A stretch of DNA of 59,416 bases, taken from IMG/VR virus record IMGVR_UViG_3300043470_000794, positions 1 to 59,416 of that record; one strand, written 5' to 3'. Below, one piece after another: positions 29,449 through 53,194 of this stretch (positions are counted from its first letter, which is position 1; every line of letters begins with the position of its first letter). This stretch comes from a virus. The notes below the pieces were generated by a model that saw only the letters and a list, made by a program, of their open reading frames with translations, searched no databases and was not told where the DNA came from. Made by a program: the position numbers and the translations under genes.

Positions 29449-29567
29449 TGAAATTTTCACACTCAGTAGCTGAAATGCTTATCCTGACATTTGTAGCCTT
29501 AAACTGCTATGTTAATGTTAGAAGATATATGTGGGATAAATCTAAAAGAAAGAGTAATAACGCATGA
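29448..29567 (+). CDS. 39-residue membrane protein
   Basis: A hydrophobic span (about residues 8-22) followed by a basic tail (RRYMWDKSKRKS), so the C-terminus is probably cytoplasmic. ATGA overlap with the Ntn-hydrolase gene, which suggests a functional or translational link. Confidence 0.58.
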   Translation: MKFSHSVAEMLILTFVALNCYVNVRRYMWDKSKRKSNNA

Positions 29568-30082
29568 CATGTATAGTGGGTATCCGATCAGATACTGGTG
29601 TATATTTAGCCTCTGAAAGAGGTTTGTCTGATGATGATGTTATTGTCTCTATGACCGCTCCTAAGATTAGACAAAATGGTATGTATATCATTGGCTATGC
29701 TGATTCCCCTGGAACTGGACAATTGCTGCACTGGATGACTCTTCCTACACCACCCAAAAAGAATGTAGAAAAGTTTATGCGTACTACATTTATTAGTTCT
29801 ATTAGAAAGCAACTAACAGAGTCTGGTGTAGACCTTAAGGAGAGTGCTCATGCATCATTTTTGGTTGGCGTATCAGATCAATTGTTTTTTATTGATACTC
29901 AAGACTGGCAAGTAACTGAGTGTGAATATATGGCTATTGGTTCTGGCTCATCTATAGCCATGGGATCTTTGTATACTACTTCTACATGGAAGTCTGCTGA
30001 AAAACGTGCCTACACCGCTGTGAGTGCTGCTATTGAGCTATCTCCAAGTTGCCAAGGTCCTATAGATATTTTGTCTATTTAG
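29564..30082 (+). CDS. proteasome/HslV-like Ntn-hydrolase
   Basis: 172 residues, about the size of HslV. After Met removal the chain begins Thr-Cys-Ile-Val-Gly. Position 17 is Glu, where HslV has Asp, and position 33 is Lys, so the Thr1/acid17/Lys33 spacing of threonine proteases is kept. The later segment YMAIGSGSSIAMGSL matches the HslV IAIGSGGPYA region. Proteasome-family enzymes assemble into barrel peptidases. No unfoldase gene (HslU, Mpa) is seen, so it could use a host partner or be a stand-alone Ntn amidohydrolase. Last gene of the rightward operon. Confidence 0.8.
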   Translation: MTCIVGIRSDTGVYLASERGLSDDDVIVSMTAPKIRQNGMYIIGYADSPGTGQLLHWMTLPTPPKKNVEKFMRTTFISSIRKQLTESGVDLKESAHASFLVGVSDQLFFIDTQDWQVTECEYMAIGSGSSIAMGSLYTTSTWKSAEKRAYTAVSAAIELSPSCQGPIDILSI

Positions 30083-31092: not shown

Positions 31093-31404
31093 TTATTCAG
31101 CCTTTTTATCTACTGAGCTAAATGCTGAGTTGATTTCACTGGCACTTAGCTTACCGTCATCGAGGAAGGCTCTTGCGAGCTTTTCTACGACTGTGGCAAC
31201 ACCAAGAGTACCTGCCATAATTACTGCAGTTAGAGTGTCAATTCCAACGAGGGAACCTGCACCAATGATTGAAAGTCCTGATGCTGCAAATACTGCAACA
31301 ATTCTGAAAAATATATTCCAGACATTTGTTACTGCCTTGGATCCGATTACTTCTTCTCCAGTTGCAGGATCTTTGACTGTTACGTCTACCTTATTCTTTG
31401 TCAT
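31093..31404 (-). CDS. putative holin-like membrane protein
   Basis: 103 residues, with a polar N-terminus and two hydrophobic segments (about residues 28-48 and 52-70), then a charged helical tail. The size, spans and neighbours fit a holin-type protein. It overlaps the next small membrane gene by 14 nt. Confidence 0.58.
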   Translation of the reverse strand: MTKNKVDVTVKDPATGEEVIGSKAVTNVWNIFFRIVAVFAASGLSIIGAGSLVGIDTLTAVIMAGTLGVATVVEKLARAFLDDGKLSASEINSAFSSVDKKAE

Positions 31405-31582
31405 TTTGTTCTCCTTCCCTAAATTTCATTGAAAACAACCATGCTGCTGTGCAGATTAAAACTGCCCATCCTACTACTGTTTTAGCAGACCCATCAAGGA
31501 CTGCCCATGCTATGAACATACCAAGAAGGGTGAATGTTTGGTTTAGTGTTTCACGAAACTTATCTGTTAACCATTTCTTCAT
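31391..31582 (-). CDS. small two-span membrane protein, holin-like
   Basis: 63 residues with two spans (about residues 14-30 and 35-52) and charged ends. Placed between the secreted repeat protein and another two-span protein, each coupled by overlap. A holin/antiholin pair is possible. Confidence 0.55.
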   Translation of the reverse strand: MKKWLTDKFRETLNQTFTLLGMFIAWAVLDGSAKTVVGWAVLICTAAWLFSMKFREGEQNDKE

Positions 31583-33411
31583 TATCTTATCCTCCCTGTT
31601 ATTAAATTAGTTGTTGATATTACCTGTCCAACAATAATGGACGCAACAACTACTATTTGTGATTCTTTGCGTTGTTCTGGTGTCATGTCTGCACCAACGT
31701 TAGCAAAAGCTTTTAATGCCTTACCTGGATCTGTTAAAACTGTTAGTAATAGTTCGCTGGGGTCTGAAAATATCTCTATCGCATCAGCAACCTCTGCTGT
31801 AAGGATTACACCGTTCTCCAACATAATTGGTTGATTTGGGGGCAAATCTTCGTAGTCAAGACCAGATGCTTCAAAATCCTCAAAAGATACTGCATCCATT
31901 GGACCATACTCTGTAAGCAATTCATTTAAAGCAACTGATTCCTCTAAAGTCAATCCGTCTATGATATTATTATTAGATGGAAGATCAGTGGTTTCAGGAC
32001 TTGGATCAGGAGTTGGACTCTCAGTTGAATCTGGAACTAATGGTTCTGGAGATGAAGTCTCTGGCTCAGGAGTTGGGGATGGAACTACAACAGGTTCTTC
32101 AGGCTGCAACGGAGATTCTGAGGGACTTAAAGAAGGGGTTGGACTAGGTGAAGGCGTTTCTGAAGGCTGTACAGAGGTTTCTGACGGCTGTGGGCTTGGC
32201 TCTGTTGGCTGGGGTGACGGTTCTAATGTTGGCGTTTGTGATTCTGACGGCTGTGGTTCAGGGCTGGCAGTAAGACTTGGGGTTGGACTAGGCTCTATTG
32301 GGCATACTTCATTCCAGGAAATAATAGATCCATCCCAGCAATTAATATTCGGTGGTATAGGTGGACACTGAGCATCCCAATTAACTTCTGATCCATCCCA
32401 ACACTCAATCGGTGGTGGCATTTGTGGACAGGTTTCATTCCAGGAAATAACTTCTTCATTCCAGCAAACAATATCTGGTGGGGTTGGCGTACACTCTGAT
32501 TCATAATGTACGATAGACCCATCCCAACAAGTTACTTGAGGTTCTATCGGACAGGTACCATTCCAAGGAACTGATGTTCCGTCCCAACATTGGACAGCAG
32601 GAGGCTCAGGGGGGCAAGTGCTATTCCAAGGAACCGTTGAGCTATCCCAACAAATTATGTCAGGTGGGCTGGATGGACATTCTGATTCATAGTTTGTTAT
32701 TGTTCCATCCCAACAGGTATATGTTGGTTCTGTTGGACATGTATTAGGAGCATAAACTGTGCTTCCATCCCAACATTGAGTTGGAACTAAAGGTGGCTCT
32801 GTAAAGTTTGATGGTGTTGGTGCAGGTGAAACTTCAATTGGTATTCCAGCATCGCCAACGTCAAAGGCTGCAGCCATGGTTACAACGGGCTGACCGTACT
32901 CATACCTAATTGCTCTTCTTGCATCTGGGGGAAGTGGTGTCATTGTGGTAATCTCACCATGCCAGTTGCCATTTGGGAACTTATTTACAACTAATCTCAT
33001 CTGGGTTAGAGGACCACTTGACTGTGGAAATGGTCGCACAGACCATTCTATACAAAAAGAATCATTGTTGTATCCATAAGAGGTATAAGCTCCTGGACCA
33101 AAAGAAACCCAGTCTCTACCTGCAACAGAAACAGAAGGAGTTTGAGGATAGTCATGAAACGTGCCATCTGGTTGACCAAAGGTTACAGTTGCATTAGTAC
33201 TGTAATATACCCTATCGTATTCTGTTGATCCAAGCTTTAAAGAAAACGGAAGAAGCATTTGAAAAGAACCATCATCGTCACCAGTTACAGTAGACATGTT
33301 GCAAACTAAAGGAGGGTTTGCGTATGATGCTGGGCTAATTAAGAAAATACCTAAAATACCAGCTAAACATGTTATTAAAACATAAGAAATAAGCCTTTTA
33401 AGTTTTTTCAA
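31582..33411 (-). CDS. secreted CWDG-repeat protein
   Basis: 609 residues. A clear signal peptide (about residues 1-31, ending SYA) is followed by a beta-rich domain (about 35-210, with FVPLP-type turns and GQPDGTFHDYP) and eight tandem Cys repeats of about 20 residues built on CWDG(S/T), NE/ES and CP motifs (about 215-375). A long Pro/Ser/Glu-rich linker (375-480) and a C-terminal domain with a hydrophobic stretch (VVVASIIVGQVISTT) complete it. Each repeat keeps two cysteines, probably disulphide-bonded outside the cell. It may coat or bind the host envelope; I do not recognise a family for the repeat. Confidence 0.72.
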   Translation of the reverse strand: MKKLKRLISYVLITCLAGILGIFLISPASYANPPLVCNMSTVTGDDDGSFQMLLPFSLKLGSTEYDRVYYSTNATVTFGQPDGTFHDYPQTPSVSVAGRDWVSFGPGAYTSYGYNNDSFCIEWSVRPFPQSSGPLTQMRLVVNKFPNGNWHGEITTMTPLPPDARRAIRYEYGQPVVTMAAAFDVGDAGIPIEVSPAPTPSNFTEPPLVPTQCWDGSTVYAPNTCPTEPTYTCWDGTITNYESECPSSPPDIICWDSSTVPWNSTCPPEPPAVQCWDGTSVPWNGTCPIEPQVTCWDGSIVHYESECTPTPPDIVCWNEEVISWNETCPQMPPPIECWDGSEVNWDAQCPPIPPNINCWDGSIISWNEVCPIEPSPTPSLTASPEPQPSESQTPTLEPSPQPTEPSPQPSETSVQPSETPSPSPTPSLSPSESPLQPEEPVVVPSPTPEPETSSPEPLVPDSTESPTPDPSPETTDLPSNNNIIDGLTLEESVALNELLTEYGPMDAVSFEDFEASGLDYEDLPPNQPIMLENGVILTAEVADAIEIFSDPSELLLTVLTDPGKALKAFANVGADMTPEQRKESQIVVVASIIVGQVISTTNLITGRIR

Positions 33412-33482
33412 TTCTCTTTCTCCCGTATTAGCCTATCTTGAGACTAATAGTTTAATTATAACATTGGGGAGATTTAAATTAG

Positions 33483-34511
33483 TTATACAAGAGCGTGAGG
33501 CTTACTTTCACTTACCGAGAGACTTGAAACTTCGATATACATTGATCCTTCATATAAGTCTCTAAGATTATGTTCTCCAGAGTAGGAGCATCCACTTCCA
33601 AGACCACCACGAATATCACTAAATATTTTATCTACTGGTCCCTTGTGTGCAATTTTTGTTGCAACACCTTCTGCAATAGGAACATCTTTTCCTTGGTTAG
33701 CTTCTTTACTTGCCATACCTCTAAAAATTTTATACTTTCCAGAGCCATCAATAAGTAGTCTTCCAGGTGATTCATCTGTACCAGCCAACATAGACCCAAG
33801 CATTACGGCATCAGCACCTGCAGCAAAAGCCTTAATCATATCTCCAGTATTTCTTATTCCGCCATCAGCAATTATTGTTGTATTTATACCAGACTCTTCT
33901 TTCCATTCTTTGATTTCCATAATGGATGCTAGAGTAGGAATTCCGTGACCAGAAACTAATCTAGTAGTGCATACTGAGCCACCACCAATTCCAACACGAA
34001 TAGAGTCTGCACCTGCTTCTGACAAGGCTTCAAAACCAAACTTAGTAGATACATTTCCAGCCATTAAGTGAAAACTGGTACCAAATGTATCCCTAATCTT
34101 TTTAACCGCTTCTACAGCGTAACTACTGTGTCCATTTGCGGTATCTACAAGGATCGCTGAGGCACCAGAAAGCAATAGTTTTCCAGTGTCCTCCAAGTAT
34201 GTTCTTTTTGCTCCCACAGAAGCACCAACTGCTAAGTCCTGTAAACATAAATTCTGCACTATTCTTTGTTGTTTCTTTATGTCCATAAATCTATGAATCA
34301 TTCCAAGACCACCTGCTTTTGCAATTGCAACTGCCATTTCTTCTTCACAGACAGTATCCATTGGTGCTGCAATTACAGGAAAGGTTAGGTGCGAACCTTT
34401 GCCAAAAGGCATTCTTAAATCAATTTCTGATCTACTCTGAACATTTGATGTTTGTGGAACCATTAAAATATCATCAAAGCATAGTTGTCTTTGTTGTTTG
34501 TATTTAATCAC
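33483..34511 (-). CDS. IMP dehydrogenase / GMP reductase family enzyme, no CBS domains
   Basis: 342 residues, GTG start overlapping the upstream stop by one base. The TIM barrel pattern includes [42 protein letters not shown] and [15 protein letters not shown] with the catalytic Cys, then [17 protein letters not shown] and [13 protein letters not shown]. The length (342) is that of GMP reductase or CBS-less IMPDH. IMPDH makes XMP from IMP; GMP reductase does the reverse step from GMP to IMP. I cannot decide from sequence alone. Probably a nucleotide-supply gene. Confidence 0.88.
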
Positions 34512-35871: not shown

Positions 35872-36606
35872 TTAATCGTAATTTTTTTTAGACCATTGAT
35901 TTTTTACATAGTTTCCAAAGGAGGTGAGCCTTAGCCAAGACTCCTGTTTTCGACTGTGCACATCTCCAGGATAATAATCAAATTCTGCTTTCCAGTCTTC
36001 TCTTTTAAATGGAGTAACTTTAACAATTGGTGTACCACGTTTTAATAACCCCTCAAAGCCTTCCTTTAAGTGAAAAGGTATTGGAAGAGCAGCATCATAT
36101 TTATCGGTATCTACAACCGCATCAAATGGCTTAAAGGGTAAGTCATTGTGTCCAATTGCCGAAGAGATTCTTGTAGAATATCCTGGAGGTGTTCTAATGC
36201 ACCACATGTTTATGAACTTAAACACATGCTTATTGTATCCATCTGGAGCTTTTAAGTGATTATCCCCATCAATGTTGTACTCAAGCACTTCCCTGGTTGT
36301 TTTCCAAGTAAATATTGGATTATATTCTCCATCTTCTGTTGGACGATTTGTAACCTGAACATCTGCCCATAGCGGAATAATATATCCTTCTGTTATTGAA
36401 TCTAGCAGAGACACACATTTTTTTGGAGACAAATTATTTCTAAGATTATTTAAAATAAATTTTTTCCCAGTGGGATTTTCTTCGTTTTTTATGTATGGAG
36501 GCATATCTCTCCACCATTTTGGAATATTATTTTTTGCAGGATATGGTTTATCTGCTAAATCCCAAGCCCATTCATTTACTGCAATAAATTTAATTTTTTT
36601 AGCCAT
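35872..36606 (-). CDS. unrecognised family, paralogue A
   Basis: 244 residues. It shares with two neighbours the blocks PYPAKNNIPKWWRDMPPY, GYIIPLWADV, PPGYSTRISS, AVVDTDK and FEGLLKRGTPIVKVTPFKRE. No membrane segment or signal. It starts next to paralogue B and is cotranscribed. The family is unknown to me; a structural or glycan-binding role is possible from the context of fibres. Confidence 0.7.
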   Translation of the reverse strand: MAKKIKFIAVNEWAWDLADKPYPAKNNIPKWWRDMPPYIKNEENPTGKKFILNNLRNNLSPKKCVSLLDSITEGYIIPLWADVQVTNRPTEDGEYNPIFTWKTTREVLEYNIDGDNHLKAPDGYNKHVFKFINMWCIRTPPGYSTRISSAIGHNDLPFKPFDAVVDTDKYDAALPIPFHLKEGFEGLLKRGTPIVKVTPFKREDWKAEFDYYPGDVHSRKQESWLRLTSFGNYVKNQWSKKNYD

Positions 36607-37349
36607 TACTTAAATTCCTTTTTTGTCCAAACAAATCTTTTATAGTGATTTTTTATATGTGAGTTAAATGCAACTTCTTCCATTATACTGTATTCGCCAT
36701 CCTTTAAAGAACTATATTCTGATTCCCAAGAATCTCTTTTAAATGGAATAACTTGAACCATTGGTGTACCTTTTTCAACAATTCCTTCAAAACCTTCCTT
36801 TATCCAAAATGGCGGTAAGATTGAAAGAGTTAATTTATCTGTATCTAATACTGCACCAATTGCTTTAAACGGACTATTTTCGTTTGCATAAGGATCAGTT
36901 ACTAAACAGGAATATCCTTTTGGTGTTCTAAAGTCCCAACCATTCATCCACTTAAAAACAAATGGACTATATCCATCTGGAGTTGTTAGACCAGTAACTC
37001 CATCATTTCCACCACTACCCCATCCTCCATGCATTTCAAACGGGGTTGATTTTGTTCTCCAAAACAAGTGTGGTTGATTATTTATTTGTCTTACCTCTAC
37101 ATCAGCCCACAGTGGGATAATATATCCAGTGGTAAAAGTATCATACATAGGGGTACACATTTTTGGGGTTACACTACTAGCTCCGTATCTTACCGTTAGC
37201 ATTCTTTTGCCATCTTCAACTTCATTGTATGAGGGCATTTCCTTATACCATTTTGGAAGGTAATGTTTTGCAGGATATGGTTTTGGTGCTACTTTTTCAA
37301 AATATGGAGACCTTGCAACAAACTCTATTTTTGTTTTTTTGTTAAACAT
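36606..37349 (-). CDS. unrecognised family, paralogue B
   Basis: 247 residues, with KPYPAKHYLPKWYKEMPSY, GYIIPLWADVEV, TPKGYSCLVTDP, AVLDTDK and KEGFEGIVEKGTPMVQVIPFKR. It overlaps paralogue A by one base and is nearer to A than to paralogue C. Confidence 0.7.
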   Translation of the reverse strand: MFNKKTKIEFVARSPYFEKVAPKPYPAKHYLPKWYKEMPSYNEVEDGKRMLTVRYGASSVTPKMCTPMYDTFTTGYIIPLWADVEVRQINNQPHLFWRTKSTPFEMHGGWGSGGNDGVTGLTTPDGYSPFVFKWMNGWDFRTPKGYSCLVTDPYANENSPFKAIGAVLDTDKLTLSILPPFWIKEGFEGIVEKGTPMVQVIPFKRDSWESEYSSLKDGEYSIMEEVAFNSHIKNHYKRFVWTKKEFK

Positions 37350-37350
37350 T

Positions 37351-37986
37351 CTATAACTCTAGTTCTAGTTGATCTGAAACAGCTAAATTTGTTCTTGGAT
37401 AAGGGTCTTCCCATCCAAAACCAGTAGATCGTTCATATTTTCTTAAAGTAAGTATAGCGTCTATTACTCCCAACCTATACTGATCAGAATTTCTATCTGG
37501 ATCATCAATTCTATTTCCGTATCTAATATCTAATAAGTCATAAATTGGTCTATAAATATTTCTAAAATTAAATAAAGAGTTTATAAACATGTTTGACACT
37601 GGCTCAGCAGACCCTGCCCGTTTTAATTCTGATACGGCTAACTCACAAATATACATCATCTCAGGCTCTACCATGTTGTTTACACAATAGGTAAAAGTAG
37701 AATATACTATTAATGCTCTTACCTGATCTTCTGTAAGCCCATTAATTTCTTTATTGGCTAGTAACTCTTTTGCTTTATCGTAATTTAAGTCTTTCCAAAT
37801 TGCTTCTTTTTCATGAGAAAGAACTTCATCTAAATACTTTTCTATATTTGTTTGATGAAACTTTTCGTGATCATGTATCCTATTTTCAGGATCTAAAACA
37901 TGTGTGTGCCTATAGCTAAACTTTCCAATATGCTCATGGTTTTCTGCATCTTTATGTGTATGGTCGTGTTCTGGTAAAACTGTCAT
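37351..37986 (-). CDS. hypothetical protein with His-rich N-terminus
   Basis: 211 residues. The first 45 residues hold about ten histidines (EHDHTHKDAENHEH then HTHVLD and HDHEKFH), a possible metal-binding tail like those of the nearby collar fibres. The remainder is helical. It lies between paralogues B and C with 1-nt gaps, so it probably shares their operon. Confidence 0.65.
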   Translation of the reverse strand: MTVLPEHDHTHKDAENHEHIGKFSYRHTHVLDPENRIHDHEKFHQTNIEKYLDEVLSHEKEAIWKDLNYDKAKELLANKEINGLTEDQVRALIVYSTFTYCVNNMVEPEMMYICELAVSELKRAGSAEPVSNMFINSLFNFRNIYRPIYDLLDIRYGNRIDDPDRNSDQYRLGVIDAILTLRKYERSTGFGWEDPYPRTNLAVSDQLELEL

Positions 37987-37987
37987 T

Positions 37988-38698
37988 TTAACTCCAATCC
38001 TTTAATGATCTAAAATTATCCTTATATCTATTTTGAATTTTTCTTTCTGCTTTTTTCCAAATACTATCAAACAAGCTGTTATACTTATTAATTTTAATTT
38101 TCCAAGATTCTCTTTTAAATGGAATAATTTGAATCATTGGCGTTCCAGCTGGAATCAGTCCTTCAAAATCTTTTCTTATAAAGAATGGAAAATTTACTGG
38201 TATGGGGTGCTTGTCTGTGTCTACAATTGCTGGTAAGCATTCAAAAGGTAGGTCATCTCTTAAAATTGGACTAATAAATATTGAAGAATATCCTTTTGGC
38301 GTTTTTGTTATCCAAGTATTTATGAATTTATATCCTAAAGGATAGAATTCTTTTGGAATGGTAAATTGATCATATTGATGTGCTGGATGACTCTCAATGC
38401 ATGTAAAGTTATTAATTCCCCAAGCAAAATTTAGAGATCCATCTTCATTTTTTGAAACATAAATGTCTGCTGGTGTTTTAATTATGTAGCCAGCTGAAAT
38501 TAGATCGAATATAGGCATACACGCCTTGATGGTAGTATTAAACGTTCCAACCTCTGTAGAAATAATTTTTTGTCCTCCAGAATACCTGTCTTGTTTTTTA
38601 TACCATTCTGGAATAATATTTTTTGCAGAAACTGGTTCATCAAAAATATCCTGGTACATGCTTGCTGAAGGATAAAAATTAATAATATTTTTCTTCAT
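37988..38698 (-). CDS. unrecognised family, paralogue C
   Basis: 236 residues, the most diverged copy: PVSAKNIIPEWYKKQ, GYIIKTPADIYV, TPKGYSSIFISPI, AIVDTDK and FEGLIPAGTPMIQIIPFKRE. First of the four-gene run, so the most upstream copy. Confidence 0.68.
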   Translation of the reverse strand: MKKNIINFYPSASMYQDIFDEPVSAKNIIPEWYKKQDRYSGGQKIISTEVGTFNTTIKACMPIFDLISAGYIIKTPADIYVSKNEDGSLNFAWGINNFTCIESHPAHQYDQFTIPKEFYPLGYKFINTWITKTPKGYSSIFISPILRDDLPFECLPAIVDTDKHPIPVNFPFFIRKDFEGLIPAGTPMIQIIPFKRESWKIKINKYNSLFDSIWKKAERKIQNRYKDNFRSLKDWS

Positions 38699-52804: not shown

Positions 52805-53194
52805 TTAAGATGCAAGAATCTTGGCAGGATCAATGTCCTTACCTGCACTCCATCTAATGTTGTCTCTCATTTCAAAGTGAAGGTGCGGACCAGAGGAGTT
52901 GCCTGTGTTACCAGACTCACCAATGTGCTGTCCCTTCTTTACTGTTGCTCCAGGCTTAACTAGAGCCTTTGAAAGGTGTGCATAGATTACCCAGCCACCT
53001 TCAACTTTCTGGACCAGTTGGGTGCCGTAGCTATTTCCCCAGGATGCGTTTTCAATCTTACCATCTGCAACTGCAATGATATCAGTTCCTGTTGGAACTG
53101 CAAAATCTACTCCTGTATGGTAGCCCTTTGACCACATCTTTCCAAGCTTCTTGTAAGGTGTTGTAACCTTACCACCTTTAATAGGTAGACCCAT
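52805..53194 (-). CDS. M23-family peptidoglycan peptidase
   Basis: 129 residues with the LytM/M23 pattern: GYHTGVDFAVPTGTDI (zinc His and Asp), GGWVIYAHLSKALV, GNTGNSSGPHLHFEM (HLH zinc pair). It is a Zn metallo-endopeptidase that cuts peptide cross-links. No signal peptide. It ends with DIDPAKILAS. Lysin or virion-associated peptidase. Flanked by two related beta-domain genes. Confidence 0.92.
   Translation of the reverse strand: MGLPIKGGKVTTPYKKLGKMWSKGYHTGVDFAVPTGTDIIAVADGKIENASWGNSYGTQLVQKVEGGWVIYAHLSKALVKPGATVKKGQHIGESGNTGNSSGPHLHFEMRDNIRWSAGKDIDPAKILAS

Follow-up and report, generated by a model that had tools for sequence, protein, structure and literature searches.

A widespread phage two-gene unit pairs an exported protein carrying swappable outer modules with a small membrane protein near lysis genes

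To our knowledge, the completion of lysis by phages of actinobacteria is poorly understood, and their lysis cassettes contain multiple unexplained membrane genes. In diderm hosts the job of envelope disruption is done by spanins, of which the i-spanins have an N-terminal helix and an outer-membrane lipoprotein as partner. The closest precedent for the protein described here is LysZ of the corynephages, which has one transmembrane domain and is proposed to act on lipid-anchored glycans (PMC13056207). Deletion of LysZ leads to small plaques, with rescue in a lipoarabinomannan-deficient host (PMC13056207).

We analyzed a gene for an exported 609-residue protein in a viral DNA stretch of 59,416 nucleotides (IMG/VR record IMGVR_UViG_3300043470_000794, hereafter the window). 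Like LysZ of corynephages CL31 and Cog, the protein is predicted to be a single-transmembrane protein with its bulk outside the membrane, and it is found among the lysis genes of what is probably an actinobacterial phage. LysZ itself has 177 residues and an N-in/C-out topology, whereas the window protein combines a cleavable signal and a C-terminal helix with a long stalk, swappable, putatively lectin-type modules and a fixed two-helix partner. Compared with LysZ as described, its topology is type I instead of N-in/C-out, and we do not assign it to the LysZ type. The likeness to spanins (Rz/Rz1 and u-spanins) is one of analogy: a membrane-tethered, exported protein that would span the envelope and serve the final step of lysis. 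An earlier note on this DNA, made from the sequence alone, had proposed a spanin-like lysis complex; the link to lysis is strong from gene order, while the spanin likeness is at most this analogy. The anchor is C-terminal, unlike that of i-spanins, and no lipoprotein partner was found, so the protein is not classed as a spanin. As there is no lipobox Cys at the signal cleavage site and a C-terminal transmembrane helix is present, the likeness to u-spanins is confined to their C-terminal half.

The gene (31582..33411, minus strand, as are all parts of the protein given below) starts with TTG, and this start and the beginning LKK(I/L).. are shared by most close relatives. Residues 1-31 (33319..33411) form a signal peptide according to hydropathy and homologous starts, with a hydrophobic stretch at residues 7-25 (Kyte-Doolittle mean 2.59) and a cleavage site between SYA and NPP. 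An N-terminal all-beta domain (residues 35-193, 32833..33309) follows, which is kept among relatives, occurs in one copy per phage and contains the invariant residues Cys37 and Cys120; its AlphaFold2 model has a pLDDT of 91.5 and a pTM of 0.87. Eight Cys-Trp (CW) units (residues 213-371, 32299..32775) lead into a linker rich in Pro, Ser, Thr and Glu (residues 372-480, 31972..32298), where residues 375-480 comprise 33 P, 23 S, 14 T and 14 E (84 of 106 residues). The alignment of relatives (A4) delimits a C-terminal membrane-proximal domain (residues 481-585, 31657..31971), after which come a hydrophobic segment (residues 586-604, 31600..31656, hydropathy mean 2.04) and the basic tail TGRIR. This segment and tail are likely a membrane anchor by their sequence, and together with the signal peptide they indicate a type I topology by hydropathy. 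No LPXTG-type sortase motif precedes the helix in the window protein or in alignment A4, and a conserved domain of about 60 residues takes its place. The signal peptide, the long Pro/Ser linker and the eight tandem units had been described in the earlier note, and hydropathy, residue counts and unit spacing bear this out; the second hydrophobic segment had been overlooked.

The CW units start at residues 213, 233, 254, 275, 295, 316, 337 and 358, with a spacing of 20 or 21 residues, and every unit has the form C-x11-C, the second Cys lying 12 residues past the first. Cys and Trp are present in all eight, Asp in seven (the exception being unit 6, CWNEE) and Gly in six, and Pro directly follows the second Cys in seven (the exception being unit 5, CTPTP). 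Among 115 distinct relatives, 209 of 210 CW-type matches have the C-x11-C form, which argues that the pattern is not due to chance. Over these 209 units C and W never vary; the consensus is CW(D/N)GSx(V/I)PWNxTCPPxPP, a motif confined to this family among the locus sequences examined. From the spacing and the export signal, we infer that the two Cys residues of a unit may form a disulfide. AlphaFold2 models each unit as a small beta hairpin with a pLDDT of about 80; structure prediction of a repeat had been suggested in the earlier note. The same note had treated the repeats as the main feature of the protein, which does not hold: relatives carry 0-9 copies (L010 none, L013 one, L014 nine) on a constant anchor, so the repeats are an optional ornament and were ruled out as the functional core.

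Searches with the whole protein gave no match in Pfam, PHROGs, NCBIfam, PADLOC, INPHARED or PDB, in agreement with the earlier statement that the family is not a recognised one; the absence of a PADLOC match means that it resembles no known anti-phage defence protein there. PDB yielded nothing useful by sequence profile or by fold. A nidogen or known lectin fold was considered for the N-terminal domain and rejected, as no PDB fold match reached E < 0.2 and none was found by profile. The CW repeats match no lectin, and when they were searched alone in phages, only hits with E > 0.5 came up, to tail proteins of mycobacteriophages and to Manatee Spring phages, which were judged to be chance. In the viral-model library, two proteins of uncultured phages give the best fold matches (E about 1e-10). 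A further fold match (E 3e-6) is a 286-residue protein of the freshwater cyanophage S-SRM01, which also gives a weak sequence match (E 2.6e-4) and is encoded beside tail fibre genes. A cellular origin was looked for by scanning about 85,000 species genomes twice, with profiles of the N- and C-terminal domains; these scans, which are sensitive only to conserved patterns of 8-10 residues, gave no confirmed relative. There is no mention of the protein in the freshwater actinophage literature.

Relatives are common in IMG/VR. A first set of 13 grew to at least 173 by the N-terminal domain and at least 149 by the C-terminal domain, counted over contigs that are fragments with redundancy; E-values of the tblastn locus scan are relative to the candidates. 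Both domains are present in every member of the first set that is not truncated by a contig end. Across the family, the signal peptide, the Pro/Ser/Thr linker, the C-terminal domain and the C-terminal transmembrane helix are constant, and the outward modules vary, including the all-beta domain of the window, PA14, SUEL lectin, Fn3, CW repeats and a probable beta-helix (L036, by eye). Among 25 members without the N-terminal domain, nine have PA14, three SUEL lectin and two Fn3, and in some other relatives small Cys-containing domains replace the N-terminal domain. The PA14 matches (PF07691) include L132 (E 6e-12, with one CW unit in addition), L156 (1.3e-10) and L120 (9.5e-8), and the SUEL matches (PF02140) include L152 (4.4e-8) and one within L012 (1.2e-6, just short of the curated cut-off). 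In L120, L132, L152, L156 and L195 these domains occupy the same outward position, and L195 has the order PA14, Fn3, CW, Fn3, four CW units, linker, C-terminal domain and helix. Comparison of L138 with L136 reveals what by sequence is a clean swap of the outer module: the leaders are 94% identical in nucleotides, the C-terminal domains 93% in amino acids and the downstream regions 96% in nucleotides, and the outer modules are unrelated (31% over a heavily gapped alignment).

Sugar binders are known in both the PA14 and the SUEL family. The presence of these domains at the outward position makes a glycan-binding role there reasonable, and the binding of host sugars proposed in the earlier note thereby gains indirect support from related phages; the window protein itself has no Pfam match to PA14 or SUEL, and its own modules match no lectin. 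We also note two further variations in relatives. In L017, L009, L010, L019 and L025, additional acidic helical repeats of the form DG(x)IS(x)xE lie between the linker and the C-terminal domain; they have an EF-hand- or TerB-like look, and a BFVD fold relative (A0A6J5NEV5) is labelled TerB_like, with no TerB found by Pfam in the A1 members. In L248, the ORF directly before the small membrane gene described below encodes a short exported protein in which VLVVDKCPEFCP occurs twice and a Pro/Lys linker is present; this may be a further kind of Cys-repeat outer module.

The gene directly downstream encodes a 63-residue two-helix membrane protein (TM63; 31391..31582, minus strand), whose start overlaps the upstream stop (TAATG). 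TM63 contains two hydrophobic segments and matches none of the families searched, PHROG families included. Among 97 intact distinct relatives with enough downstream DNA, 95 have the TM63 start within -3 to +14 nt of the gene end. Used alone as a query in IMG/VR, TM63 gives at least 600 stretches, of which at least 591 are confirmed matches, and among the best 80 of these, the C-terminal domain of the exported protein is present in 75 of 79 loci examined. The remaining four loci have TM63 at the very start of their contig, so that all 75 loci with upstream room carry the domain. Since these nearest 80 were picked by TM63 only, the test is not circular. The exported protein and TM63 are a two-gene unit of near-obligate partners. 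In L198 (3551-4168), L200 (3551-4165), L201 (271-885) and L202 (3551-4168), we found N-terminally extended TM63 homologues, with extensions of about 100 residues made of repeated basic-aromatic amphipathic helices.

Next to TM63 lies a gene for a 103-residue holin-like membrane protein (holin103; 31093..31404, minus strand), so both downstream genes fit the small membrane proteins that the earlier note had placed there. Holin103 has a weak PHROG holin match (E 0.028) and a match to phrog_26427 (E 5e-24), the 'nuclease' label of which is probably a misannotation. The term holin-like is used for TM63 and holin103 on the basis of size and hydropathy only; they resemble actinophage two-TMD holin-like proteins such as LysF1a in size and in having two hydrophobic segments, and differ from them in having no sequence match. 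Holin103 is found in 78 and an M23 peptidase in 66 of the 97 relatives' loci, which places the family among lysis genes, as LysZ is. In the window, the M23 gene (52805..53194, minus strand; PF01551, E 1.3e-29) is about 19 kb away, and in many relatives it adjoins the cassette. A direct succession of holin, exported protein, TM63 and M23 is frequent among relatives; gene orders vary, with the holin first or last, and the junction of exported protein and TM63 is constant.

The host is probably actinobacterial, as suggested by a WhiB-like gene and a terminase nearest to those of Streptomyces phages (59-60% amino acid identity), and is probably monoderm. The GC content of the window is 37%, and this low value and the lake origin of actinophage DSL-LC01 (OQ999401) would fit aquatic actinobacteria as hosts; no match to a host genome was obtained. 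No cultured relative was found in INPHARED for the window protein, L080 or TM63, and the only INPHARED links lead to DSL-LC01. This phage has a holin103 homologue (49%, E 5e-18) and, 2.4 kb from it, a gene for a 944-residue exported Fn3 protein, which the Fn3 stretch of L195 matches (28%, E 1e-4) and whose last 55 residues weakly match the TM63 profile (about 20 bits). Like the family, the 944-residue protein is exported and has Thr-rich linkers, Fn3 and a TM63-like end near a holin103 homologue; unlike the family, it has no recognisable C-terminal domain and its TM63 is fused. The TM63-like end suggests, by sequence, a natural fusion and hence that the exported protein and TM63 work together. 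In DSL-LC01 (L094, 8315-8548), two small membrane genes next to the holin103 homologue flank a 77-residue lipoprotein-like gene (VAIAGCGYDG), a possible lipoprotein lysis component.

Upstream of the gene there is an extended -10 promoter element, TGTTATAAT (33455..33463, minus strand; TGATATAAT in most relatives), and a leader hairpin, TATTAGTCT-CAAGAT-AGGCTAATA (33426..33449, minus strand), just 5' of the ribosome-binding site. A stem of at least 6 bp is present in 29 of 31 distinct family leaders, against 9.9 (maximum 15) after shuffling. The stem covaries, from GTTAGA/TCTAAC to GTCAGA/TCTGAC and also to AGCAAAC/GTTTGCT. The same arrangement of extended -10 element and hairpin at the probable transcript 5' end is found upstream of L006, L012, L025, L038, L132 and L162, and in several relatives the 3' arm of the hairpin reaches into the ribosome-binding site (TCTAACAAGGAG). 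The hairpin may stabilise the mRNA or tune translation.

We tentatively favour, as possible though short of probable, a role of the protein as a modular, glycan-binding and wall-spanning accessory of the phage lysis machinery. Expressed from a promoter of its own and secreted through Sec, the protein would stay in the host membrane by means of its C-terminal helix, paired with the co-translated TM63, with which it may be in contact. The Pro-rich stalk would cross the thin wall and bring the binding modules, in the window one all-beta domain and eight CW hairpins of the disulfide type, to the surface glycan layer, where they may bind sugars. With expression presumably late, the holin would fire, M23 and SLT enzymes would cut the peptidoglycan, and the anchored lectin-like complex would then act mechanically, pulling apart or disorganising the leftover glycan or lipoglycan layer so that virions escape. 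Such a LysZ-like or spanin-like role is preferred by analogy, with LysZ as the closest precedent and the layout as that of a tethered binder, and it suggests a new route out of cells without an outer membrane. In its favour are the linkage with TM63 seen in both directions, the holin103 and M23 neighbours, the variable outer modules on a constant anchor, the L138/L136 swap and the putative fusion in DSL-LC01. Several observations speak against it: the separate promoter and leader hairpin permit expression earlier than lysis, the M23 gene of the window is distant, and neither the fold search with the N-terminal domain nor the lectin search with the CW repeats gave a match.

The own promoter, which would permit early expression, would equally suit a displayed lectin that covers the receptor glycan, blocks superinfection and keeps progeny off cell debris, much as T5 Llp or other superinfection-exclusion proteins do. 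Superinfection blocking had also been put forward in the earlier note, and such masking is, with a lysis-timing sensor, a chief rival of the favoured reading; we consider it unlikely. Exported, anchored and swappable modules do fit a strain-specific receptor, and a similar predicted fold adjoins a tail fibre gene in S-SRM01, but gene order links the protein to TM63, holin and M23 and not to early genes. In addition, the N-terminal domain, PA14 and SUEL were each found only in this gene and not in the tail fibres of the same phage (17 phage records); this weighs mildly against simple copying of receptor modules. The S-SRM01 neighbourhood likewise bears on a role in the virion, for instance in decorating the tail or head, for which the all-beta domain could be cited, its fold relative being encoded next to tail fibres of a cyanophage; the signal peptide and C-terminal transmembrane helix of the family and the position of the window gene outside the tail module make this most improbable.

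The pairing with TM63 can also be read as a control of lysis timing, in which the ectodomain senses a ligand and gates TM63, as holin or antiholin, through the C-terminal domain and helix, similar to lysis inhibition. A variable outside, an invariant C-terminal domain and a near-obligate two-helix partner amount to a receptor-effector layout, and the likely fusion in DSL-LC01 agrees with it; yet no signalling motif was found in the protein, and contact between the C-terminal domain and TM63 is deduced only from the order of the genes and a single weak match to a fusion, so that we regard this reading as quite unlikely. Its extension, a ligand-gated lysis switch in which an interchangeable external glycan sensor and the obligate TM63 tune lysis to the cell surroundings in phages of abundant aquatic actinobacteria, is marginally less credible still. 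A Pro-rich stalk with PA14, SUEL or Fn3 modules would also suit an adhesin by which infected cells or ghosts stick to particles, to one another or to grazers, aiding spread, and the Pro-rich part of one relative bears a very weak resemblance (E 0.01-0.04) to surface adhesin models. We find this very unlikely, as it leaves the TM63 pairing and the lysis neighbourhood unexplained.

The unit is thus widespread and unnamed, with a constant anchor presenting swappable, often lectin-type, modules, and is a testable candidate for a missing step of envelope disruption or lysis control. By their sequences, the outer modules may be a natural library of binders for the surface glycans of aquatic actinobacteria that are probably uncultured.

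Other genes around the cassette were also noted. The cassette is immediately preceded by a complete IMP dehydrogenase/GMP reductase gene (33483-34511, minus strand; PF00478, E 3e-96), which takes this place in about 15 fetched loci as well, others having an exported protein of the 167-residue type instead. In most of the 29 fetched loci with an HslV/proteasome-type protease gene (in the window 29564-30082, plus strand; PF00227, E 2.5e-6; phrog_1040), this gene and the lysis operon are convergent. Within 35872-38698 (minus strand), directly after tail-collar-like genes, three paralogues of about 240 residues assigned to phrog_7084, a family annotated as of unknown function (35872-36606, 36606-37349 and 37988-38698) flank an unrelated 211-residue gene.
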